From an uncultured Bacteroidales bacterium (GTDB lineage Bacteria; Bacteroidota; Bacteroidia; Bacteroidales; UBA932): 62,433 nt of DNA. Position numbers and translations under genes: made by a program. Under the pieces are notes generated by a model that was not told the origin of the DNA, did not search any database, and saw only the letters and a program-made list of their open reading frames with translations. This document shows positions 57,793-59,356 of this stretch, piece after piece; position 1 is the first letter of the stretch; every line of letters starts with the position of its first letter. The DNA lies in the NCBI GenBank assembly GCA_944325765.1, contig CALVBH010000063.1, positions 1-62,433 of the forward strand, given 5' to 3'.

Positions 57793-57836
57793 TGCCCGGA
57801 AGCTCTGGTGGTGGAATAGGTAGACACGCAGGACTT

Positions 57837-58585
57837 ATGAAGTTCACTTTCGCTAACTGTCTCCTTTGCTTTGCATGAACATAGTGTTTTGCTATGAATA
57901 TTAAACGAAACAAAGAAGATATATTGGCAGCAGCTAAAAGTTCTTTCAGCATAGCAGAGATGTGCAGACGTCTTGGACTGGTTCCGAGTGGAGGTAACTA
58001 CAGGCTTATGCACAATGCAATAGCTGAATACAATATTGATACATCTCATTTCAGAGGACAAGGCTGGAATGTCGGTCTAAAATTCAGACCGACATCTCAG
58101 AAACAGTTATCTGAGATTCTTGTAAAAGGATCATCTTTTCAATCATACAAATTGAAAAACAGACTGTTCAAGGAATGTCTCAAGGAAAAAAGGTGTGAAC
58201 ATTGTGGCAGAAGAACTTGGCTGGGACATGAAATCCCTTTGGAAATCCATCATAAAAATGGAGACAATAGGGATAACAGATTGGAAAATCTGGAGATACT
58301 ATGCCCGAACTGCCATGCGTTGACGGATAGTTATCGAGGGAAGAACAACAAGAGTGCTACAAAGGAAACTTTGTAAGTAGAACTCCTCTAACAAACAGAA
58401 ACCTCGCGGACAGAAATGTCCGCTTTGGCGATGGCTCTCTAAAATCGGTCTGTGACCGGTAAATGGCGTAGAGACTATACGGGGAGGACCTAAACACACA
58501 TGTGTATGGTCAAGAAATAGTCCAGACTACAACGACTTAGCAGTATTTGGCTGAAGCCGGCTTGTGTAAAAGCAAGAGTAGTAAG
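57837..58585 (+). other. Group I intron in tRNA-Leu(TAA), with internal HNH gene
   Basis: The intron is 749 nt and begins after U34 (exon ends CTT) and ends with G58585 (AAG before AAAATCC), as group I introns require a 5' exon U and a terminal G. Core signals are visible: GTAGAGACTATACGG (58468-58482) and AAGAAATAGTCC (58512-58523) as the R and S elements, with P7 from GACTAT (58473-58478) and ATAGTC (58517-58522). P8 GACC/GGTC (58487-58490, 58508-58511), a CGGTC/GACCG hairpin (58445-58457) and a GCGGACA-GAAA-TGTCCGC hairpin (58406-58423) are also seen. Exon GGACTT can pair with AAGTTC (57840-57845) as P1, though I cannot find the usual U-G pair. Without the ORF about 266 nt remain. Confidence 0.9.
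57894..58376 (+). CDS. HNH homing endonuclease encoded in the tRNA-Leu intron
   Basis: The 160-residue protein has an N-terminal helix-turn-helix-like segment (ILAAAKSSFSIAEMCRRLGL), a GGNYRLMHNAI block followed by DTSHFRGQGWN, and a C-terminal HNH zinc domain: CEHCGRR near residue 101, then LEIHHKNGDNRDNRLENLEI with CPNCHAL. The paired CxxC motifs bind zinc and the HH...N...H residues form the nuclease centre. It should cut an intron-less tRNA-Leu allele and allow intron spread. The coding sequence is visibly richer in A and T than its neighbours, a sign of separate origin. It sits in the 5' part of the intron, outside the catalytic core. Confidence 0.93.
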   Translation: MNIKRNKEDILAAAKSSFSIAEMCRRLGLVPSGGNYRLMHNAIAEYNIDTSHFRGQGWNVGLKFRPTSQKQLSEILVKGSSFQSYKLKNRLFKECLKEKRCEHCGRRTWLGHEIPLEIHHKNGDNRDNRLENLEILCPNCHALTDSYRGKNNKSATKETL

Positions 58586-58640
58586 AAAATCCTGTGGGCA
58601 GAAATGTCCGTACGGGTTCGATTCCCGTCCGGAGCACCAT

Positions 58641-58680
58641 AAATCCCTGCCAATCAAACGATTGGCAGGGATTTAATTTT
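58641..58680 (+). terminator. Intrinsic terminator of tRNA-Leu
   Basis: A perfect 15-bp stem (58641-58655 AAATCCCTGCCAATC with 58660-58674) and 4-nt loop, followed by AATTTTT. It begins 4 nt after the tRNA discriminator base. Confidence 0.88.
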
Positions 58681-58806: not shown

Positions 58807-59085
58807 ATGAAAACAGTGAATTTTACAGAACTTAGAAAAAATCTGCGTTCATATCTTGACAGGGTTATAAACGATACCGACACGGTAGTAATAAGCCGGG
58901 AGAACGGCACGGCCGCCGTGCTCATCTCCATGGATGAATACAACGCCGTAAAGGAAACGGAATACCTGATGCAATCCCCGGCAACCATGGACGCGATAAG
59001 GAAAGCGGCTGACGAGCTCGATCGCGGGGAATCCGTCAGACAGGAAGACGGGGAAACAATTGCCGATTTCCTGGAGCGTGTCTGA
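58807..59085 (+). CDS. yefM: YefM/Phd-family antitoxin
   Basis: The 92-residue protein starts with the DNA-binding Phd/YefM fold (MKTVNFTELRKNLRSYLDRV, then TVVISRENGTAAVLISMDEYNAV) and has a C-terminal tail that would wrap and block YoeB (LDRGESVRQEDGETIADFLERV, in part). It represses its own operon together with the toxin. The toxin gene starts 1 nt after its stop. Confidence 0.93.
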   Translation: MKTVNFTELRKNLRSYLDRVINDTDTVVISRENGTAAVLISMDEYNAVKETEYLMQSPATMDAIRKAADELDRGESVRQEDGETIADFLERV

Positions 59086-59086
59086 T

Positions 59087-59356
59087 ATGTACAGGATTGT
59101 CTTTTCAATGCAGGCAAAATCCGACTGGGATTTCTGGAAATCATCTGGGAACACCGCCATTATGAGGAAAATTGCCGCCCTGCTGGAAGATGTGGCGGAA
59201 CATCCCTACACCGGGACGGGAAAGCCGGAGCCGCTGAAATACGAGCTTTCCGGGTGCTGGTCCCGTAGAATCAACAAGGAACACAGGCTTGTATATCGGG
59301 TAAAAGAAAGAGTTGTCGAGGTTGAGGTTTTATCTATACGCCGCCATTACAGATAA
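59087..59356 (+). CDS. yoeB: YoeB/Txe-family mRNA interferase toxin
   Basis: The 89-residue RelE-fold toxin cleaves mRNA on the ribosome. TGKPEPLKYELSGCWSRRIN, EHRLVYRV and the C-terminal RRHYR supply the expected catalytic residues (Glu of PEPLK, Arg of EHRLVY, terminal His-Tyr). ATG 59087 is the family start (MYRIVFSMQAKSDW); an upstream TTG would overlap the antitoxin gene. The active-site residues look intact. Confidence 0.93.
   Translation: MYRIVFSMQAKSDWDFWKSSGNTAIMRKIAALLEDVAEHPYTGTGKPEPLKYELSGCWSRRINKEHRLVYRVKERVVEVEVLSIRRHYR

Follow-up and report, generated by a model that had tools for sequence, protein, structure and literature searches.

tRNA-Leu(UAA) gene and its intron

The window, the whole stretch of 62,433 nucleotides analysed here, carries a tRNA-Leu(UAA) gene that is interrupted in its anticodon. 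All features described below are on the forward strand. The 5′ exon (57802-57836) ends at U34 and is followed by an intron of 749 nt (57837-58585) with a terminal G at 58585; the 3′ exon (58586-58636) completes the gene, and CCA stands directly 3′ of it at 58637-58639. With introns allowed, ARAGORN reports at this locus (L034) a single tRNA-Leu with the anticodon taa and a 749-nt intron after tRNA position 35. Without introns it finds no tRNA at the locus. The original prediction spoke of two tRNA-Leu halves 749 nt apart that form 86 nt when joined, of an exon ending in U and an intron ending in G, and of an ORF-free core of about 266 nt. ARAGORN agrees on the halves, the joined exons are 86 nt long, both boundary bases are read in the sequence, and 266 nt of the intron are left once the HNH ORF is subtracted. 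ARAGORN labels such as tRNA-Ser and tRNA-Phe at several loci were rejected as mis-splits of tRNA-Leu(UAA).

There are 34 tRNA matches in the genome of the window, and the tRNA-Leu genes among them are CAA, GAG and TAG. The intact second tRNA-Leu(UAA) gene that the original prediction had considered as the opposing case is found neither in this genome (88% complete) nor, by pattern search, in G107 (98% complete), a genome of the same genus with the same intron.

A candidate terminator-like hairpin followed by a T run is located at 58640-58675; the consensus scan finds 1 against a mean of 0.7 in shuffles. The rest of Rfam likewise has no group I match on the window intron; its weak rli38 matches are located on the terminator hairpin and were rejected. 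A YefM antitoxin and YoeB toxin pair (Pfam) is found at 58807-59353, immediately downstream of tRNA-Leu(UAA).

HNH gene in the P1 loop

The HNH gene predicted originally inside the intron is an ORF of 160 aa (57894-58376), which matches Pfam HNH_3 just over the cut-off (26 bits, cut-off 24.8) and PHROG 10822 at 9e-45. Residues C101, C104, H120, N132, C137, C140 and H141 are invariant in 13 rows; we take them to be the HNH motif and the zinc-binding cysteines. Between the window and L035, its same-genus twin locus, dN is 0.063 and dS 1.54 over residues 1-152, giving a dN/dS of 0.041 with dS near saturation. Judged from these substitutions, the HNH gene is under purifying selection. A PDB sequence search gave no relative (best E 0.088), and Foldseek against PDB gave nothing at E 0.001.

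The position of the gene follows from the relatives. In the ORF-free introns of L105, L107 and L112 the guide GAGUGC lies 26-32 nt after the splice site. The same hexamer is present in the window at 58352-58357, downstream of the ORF start, and hence the HNH gene sits in the P1 loop. The 5′ strand of P1 is GGACTT (57831-57836), with U34 at the splice site; it pairs with the guide with a U.G at the splice site. The guide (GAGTGC in DNA) is thus the 3′ strand of P1 and at the same time a set of HNH codons (..K-S-A..). The last HNH codons (..K S A T K E T L stop) are made of the guide sequence and of P2, a covarying hairpin at 58358-58375 (58358-58364 / 58369-58375) that overlaps the ORF end. A P1 directly at the splice site (GACUU-AUG-AAGUUC) was rejected, as it has U-A instead of U.G and is not kept in relatives.

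The guide hexamer is found at the expected place in 52 of the 55 introns whose exons were both found by pattern, and is absent there in 3; the U.G in these 52 is built into the count, as both the exon U and the guide G are set by the search pattern. The fourth guide pair is mismatched in 12 of the 52. A sense HNH frame starts upstream of the guide in 34 of the 52 introns and reads across the guide in 34/34. In the rest, the ORF comes after the guide (5) or there is no sense HNH ORF (13). A few duplicate or near-duplicate loci, e.g. L035/L100 and L043/L044, are included in these guide and ORF counts. In L103 and L108 the HNH frame apparently starts at a TTG formed by the final base of the exon and the two bases that open the intron, the start being our reading. 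By eye, the tRNA-Leu(UAA) introns of L043 and L139 combine an HNH gene in the P1 loop with another coding insert, located in P8.

Structure of the intron RNA

We aligned 14 window-type cores (alignment A3) and drew the P2-P9 structure on the same alignment on which it was scored, so the scoring favours the structure. In this scoring 96.0% of the cells are paired, and two-sided changes occur in 32 pairs against 17.9 in shuffles. When the partners are slid, pairing falls to 33-45%. Covariation is observed in P2, P3, P5, P6a, P8 and P9a.

The P3 5′ strand (58383-58387) pairs with the 3′ strand at 58482-58486, with two-sided changes in 4/5 pairs; the pairing differs among members, being CUCCU/GGGAG, UUGCC/GGCAA or UUUCG/CGAAA. 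The P5 hairpin at 58406-58423 (58406-58411 / 58418-58423) has two-sided changes in 6/6 pairs, the P6a hairpin (58444-58460) in 6/7, and the P8 hairpin at 58487-58511 (58487-58490 / 58508-58511) in 3/4. P7, the predicted G-binding site, is formed by GACTAT (58473-58478) and ATAGTC (58517-58522). It is paired and invariant in 14/14 rows, hence it shows no covariation and speaks neither for nor against a group I structure. The compensatory changes expected of a group I P3-P7 pseudoknot and P8 are seen in P3 and P8, with P7 constant. P9 at 58526-58582 (58526-58530 / 58578-58582) encloses P9a and P9b; four of its five pairs are constant, and the fifth is unpaired in 6 rows. A single-sequence fold of the core with the 3′ exon is not unusually stable (z -1.5).

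The P4-P6 stretch is where the window type departs from its relatives. The block CUAACAAACAGAAACC, exact in 11/14 rows, replaces the normal P4. Only two P4 pairs are drawn, both invariant, together with the conserved unpaired block, which is odd for a group I intron. In the regular-type introns P4 has five pairs, three of them with two-sided changes. The window intron is best explained as a probable divergent sub-lineage of an IC3-like tRNA class.

Detection by covariance models

The original prediction proposed a check with Rfam RF00028. This part of it did not hold: the model gives no match on the window intron at E up to 1, nor up to 10, and none on the same-genus twin L035, and matches 0/9 related window-type loci at E up to 1. 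Over the genome of the window it has three matches below cut-off elsewhere and none at the window intron. A gathering-threshold search of 20 loci with fast filters, L041, L042, L043 and L048 included, finds none at the cut-off. The cut-off of 50 bits is barely passed by the regular-type introns of L036 (50.3 bits) and L037 (51.3 bits), which belong to another genus of the family and carry an HNH 53% identical at the same site in the same gene. The silence of RF00028 may be due to the altered P4-P6 stretch.

A model of the relatives, in contrast, recognises the intron. R1 was built from 19 regular-type tRNA-Leu introns (alignment A2, L036 included) with 0 window-type rows. It matches the window intron at 58377-58585 with 73.7 bits and E 2.2e-14, the R1 E-values being rough after a short calibration. 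R1 also matches 13/13 other window-type loci; in the 137,561 bases searched it has no further match at E up to 10. The lack of a group I covariance match, which the original prediction had named as refuting it, thus applies to RF00028 and not to R1, of whose rows L036 is the one known to pass RF00028. Chance does not explain the arrangement, since the two halves combine to a single tRNA and a model from which the core was left out still matches it. The R1 match and the covariation support the original claim of a group I intron with an HNH gene in a Bacteroidota tRNA-Leu(UAA). RF00028 and plain ARAGORN overlook this group I type. The tRNA introns of the cyanobacterial phylum are known as group I, and R1 matched tRNA introns in 37/117 genomes of that phylum.

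Presence and absence within the genus

The pattern search, in which matches with CTC were left out as tRNA-Leu(CAA), finds an uninterrupted tRNA-Leu(UAA) gene in 26 of the 61 genomes of the window's genus; ARAGORN confirms it in the four loci fetched (L368-L371). An R1 intron match is present in 29/61 genomes. Two genomes have both, namely G579 (a weak match, with no split tRNA found) and G588 (small contigs), and eight, all drafts, have neither. Hence, among close relatives one and the same site is occupied or empty, which is the pattern of a mobile intron.

Both intron types occur in the genus. The window type is found with the HNH gene inside in the window and in G107, and without HNH in L364 and L366; in L365, on the same contig as L112, a window-type intron without ORF is followed by an HNH gene about 100 nt behind the tRNA. 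G084 has a regular-type intron (L259), so that within a single genus this site received two distinct introns. All 15 further intron loci fetched from the genus are of the regular type, with a full-length HNH in 4, a partial one in 2 (81 and 26 aa) and none in 9.

In the wider samples R1 matches are present in 8/149 genomes of the family and 32/395 of the phylum, some of them in non-Leu tRNAs. The HNH gene was found in 5/149 family genomes, with one short match. IC3-like introns in other tRNAs, CAU-type by eye and Arg UCU by ARAGORN, were observed in Bacteroidota (L269-L280, L284, L286, L287-L291), with up to three matches per genome.

HNH family and its tRNA neighbours

The HNH searches gave 219 loci, 182 of them with an aligned stretch of at least 110 residues and 167 of these unique. 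The loci were chosen by protein similarity with mostly intronic queries, and the two large searches comprise the best 80 matches each. Among the matches listed, 134 of the 167 unique homologs are in or beside tRNA-Leu(UAA). By script, 50 of them lie inside a tRNA-Leu(UAA) intron in sense and 11 in antisense; 17 are beside an intron-bearing gene and 56 beside an uninterrupted one (within 600 nt, median 31 nt). Other tRNAs are the neighbours in 15/167, and 18/167 have no tRNA near, again among the matches listed. Eleven of the 33 misses are at tRNA-Leu(UAA) introns by R1 and exon, so the count rises to 145/167 of the matches listed; L101 and L140 are probable. Ten of the 56 uninterrupted neighbour tRNAs are shorter than 80 nt, the Leu label coming from the anticodon; the UAA loop is plain in 9 of them and less so in L050. 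The share of tRNA-Leu(UAA) among more distant HNH relatives may be lower.

As a control, we considered the HNH genes outside introns. Among the matches listed, Leu(UAA) is the closest uninterrupted tRNA at 50 of 74 such loci, where 25.7 would be expected; for the 28 loci with at least 4 tRNAs the figures are 12 observed and 2.9 expected. Thus, the link between the HNH family and tRNA-Leu(UAA) holds also in the absence of the intron. An HNH tree of 165 rows, from a short search with SH-aLRT as its only support measure, has sisters with strong support of which one adjoins an intron-bearing tRNA and the other an uninterrupted one. L197 and L219 are such sisters: their neighbour tRNA is recognisably the same, with an intron at one locus and without it at the other. 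A further split/whole pair is L202 and L212, whose tRNAs are less similar. In the window's own HNH clade of 7, four are inside an intron and three beside one.

Several arrangements were seen at individual loci. In L122, L130, L155 and other Hymenobacter loci a free HNH gene stops at the start of an uninterrupted tRNA-Leu(UAA), overlaps that start or lies shortly before it, an arrangement also found in named strains. In L046, L051 and L195 the free HNH is preceded, by eye, by an apparent severed 5′ half of tRNA-Leu. An antisense HNH lies inside the tRNA-Leu(UAA) intron in L148, L158, L160, L173, L174, L176, L222 and L231; the antisense-HNH loci are Pseudomonadota and Chloroflexota MAGs and phage contigs. 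In the Lewinella relatives L113, L114 and L265 the HNH-bearing intron seems to be inserted after U33, not U34, which leaves the mature tRNA unchanged; L113 is from a named strain, Neolewinella agarilytica DSM 24740.

Phage copies

Ten of the 210 phage records with an HNH match were fetched, and in seven of them tRNA-Leu directly adjoins the HNH gene: UAA in Munch, Francesca and LR745208, UAG in GodonK, Cronus and Atu_ph07, and CAA in S-CRM01. On the other side of the HNH gene, GodonK and Cronus have a further tRNA directly adjoining it. Of the other three records, one has a tRNA-Gly beside the HNH and two have no tRNA. The phage-contig locus L047 (1958-2908) has a tRNA-Leu(UAA) intron with, by eye, a LAGLIDADG-like ORF in P7-P8, and an HNH gene just behind the tRNA. 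ROOL and GOLLD RNAs (L048 4052-4671, L054 4400-4913) adjoin phage tRNA arrays that also hold HNH genes. A 2014 review places every phage intron to date in protein-coding genes (PMC3984707), and the tRNA introns in phage contigs contrast with this statement.

Origin of the intron

The RNA tree has 88 rows from 89 matches, the second L048 match being absent. The sample that we take for the cyanobacterial phylum is the phylum of L140, a Gastranaerophilales locus. The 19 tRNA-Leu introns of that phylum form one clade (96/97), four of these rows being ARAGORN Ser calls taken as tRNA-Leu mis-splits. The window type is a separate clade (100/100) of 12 bacterial rows and the phage-contig intron L039. 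Regular-type introns of phage contigs and of Bacteroidota are intermixed in the tree. The deeper joins are unsure because the bootstrap is unsettled and long branches meet there. This HNH was found in none of the 30 loci fetched via R1 from the cyanobacterial phylum (about 1.5 kb flanks), and within that phylum the gene was found only in the Gastranaerophilales genome of L140.

Two origins had been offered originally, an independent invasion of the same site and a move across phyla. The two supported clades disfavour descent from the cyanobacterial introns, and the evidence, read from the RNA tree, favours the view that a mobile lineage entered the same site on its own. The original prediction did not include the place of the ORF in the P1 loop and its overlap with the guide, the relatives in phage contigs, or the tie of the HNH family to tRNA-Leu(UAA) at loci lacking the intron.

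Proposed mechanism and alternatives

We suggest that the locus carries a functional, mobile-derived group I intron, to which we give a probability of about 0.86. The proposal builds on the observed anatomy, covariation and RNA homology, on the selection seen in the HNH gene, on presence and absence in the genus and on the association of the HNH gene with its tRNA; the steps of splicing, cleavage, homing and transfer are proposed as follows. The tRNA-Leu(UAA) precursor would fold so that the guide GAGUGC pairs with the exon GGACUU. An external G held in P7 would attack after U34, and the freed exon would in turn attack after the terminal G of the intron, joining the exons. The product would be the sole tRNA reading UUA, as far as the drafts show. 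The unspliced precursor would yield the HNH protein, which would cut tRNA-Leu(UAA) genes lacking the intron close to the anticodon; with the intron-bearing copy as repair template, both intron and ORF would be installed at once. Likely carriers between hosts are phages that have tRNA-Leu(UAA) genes. Once the site is occupied, the HNH gene would decay or leave, giving ORF-free introns, and the intron itself might be lost later.

Several points count against this mobile explanation. RF00028 misses the intron and its window-type relatives and is weak on the regular type as well, P4 is reduced to two pairs, the structure was scored on the alignment on which it was drawn, the single-sequence fold is unremarkable and PDB offers no relative. 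Free HNH genes are found beside an intact gene, their presumed target, and MAG contigs can be misbinned phage DNA. It is conceivable that the intron splices and is an old chromosomal resident, with the HNH gene a passenger without a role in spread. The core would then be kept by need, because the tRNA seems to be the only UUA reader, and the lack of HNH in 9 of the 15 intron loci fetched from the genus fits a passenger. We nevertheless regard this as improbable, since presence within a single genus is patchy and two distinct intron types occupy the site, the HNH dN/dS is 0.041, and a phage-contig copy is in the same RNA clade. Some homing endonucleases double as maturases, and the ORF is physically woven into P1 and P2, so the HNH protein might mainly aid the splicing of its own intron. 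Introns of both types in the genus manage without HNH, however, and 56 of the 167 unique homologs are beside an uninterrupted gene among the matches listed; a role mainly as a maturase is highly improbable.

The position after U34, the IC3-like core and the R1 matches in the phylum of L140 (37/117 genomes) are what one would expect if the classic trnL intron of cyanobacteria or plastids were its source. Against such a source, the introns of that phylum are a clade of their own (19 introns, 96/97) with the window type apart (100/100), and this HNH is present in 0/30 of the loci fetched there, only the genome of L140 having it; very little weight is left for this origin. The least probable alternative, in our estimate, is a dead tRNA that is never spliced, with UUA decoded in some other way or by a further gene hidden in an assembly gap. 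The genome of the window is only 88% complete and RF00028 is silent, which would suit a dead locus, but G107 at 98% has the same intron and, by pattern, no intact UAA gene, and exons and core stay conserved across the 14 rows, with compensatory substitutions. We therefore keep to a functional intron derived from a mobile one.

Beyond the single locus, we raise tentatively, at somewhat less than even odds, that one HNH lineage is specialised on tRNA-Leu(UAA) across bacteria and phages. For it the intron would be an optional shelter, the HNH gene residing inside it, beside an intron-bearing gene or beside an uninterrupted one, and the two modules would be gained and lost separately. If this is true, the ancient trnL intron that cyanobacteria and plastids carry without an ORF would represent what has settled down from a still mobile family.

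Relation to known systems

The window intron is similar to the cyanobacterial and plastid trnL IC3 intron in the gene, the position after U34, the pairing of the guide with the anticodon-stem exon and the type of P7/P8. It differs in the HNH gene in the P1 loop, the changed P4-P6, a clade of its own, and presence and absence within a genus. Bonocora and Shub reportedly described in 2001 an endonuclease-bearing intron in cyanobacterial tRNA-fMet, its enzyme being of another fold. It shares with the present case an intron-encoded homing endonuclease aimed at the anticodon region, in another tRNA. Beggiatoa and Thiomargarita, which we take to be Gammaproteobacteria, likewise have an intron in this gene. 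Putative group I introns are given for tRNA-Leu-TAA and tRNA-Arg-TCT in Beggiatoa BOGUAY and Thiomargarita, thus also outside cyanobacteria for tRNA-Leu UAA; the Thiomargarita tRNA-Leu-TAA is listed with 353 bases including the intron, which leaves no room for an HNH ORF (PMC4853749).

Free-standing endonucleases also keep company with tRNA genes. The phage GIY-YIG enzyme SegB is encoded beside tRNA genes and drives their amplification without isotype preference (PMC13096335); unlike SegB, the HNH described here (PHROG 10822) is tied to tRNA-Leu, mostly UAA among the 167 homologs listed. The Jug gut phages of Bacteroides and Phocaeicola are rich in group I introns and HNH genes, the introns being described in protein-coding genes and the term tRNA being absent from the main text (PMC12363816). 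That tRNA genes are missed owing to group I introns has been reported (PMC8450103), a 2025 intron database holds IC3 introns mostly of plants (PMC11835236), and trnL intron evolution has been studied in Nostoc (PMC4476775). In the open-licence PMC literature we found no report of an HNH-bearing intron in a tRNA-Leu(UAA) of Bacteroidota or phages; subscription journals lie mostly outside it, and earlier reports are possible.

The trnL intron is the textbook ancient intron and is normally ORF-free at this site. Its manner of spread is for this reason an open question, and a mobile-looking form is now found at exactly that site. One genus shows the site empty, occupied with HNH, and occupied with a broken or missing HNH, and there are copies in phage contigs besides. 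Intron gain, intron loss and phage transfer at an essential tRNA gene thus become directly testable.
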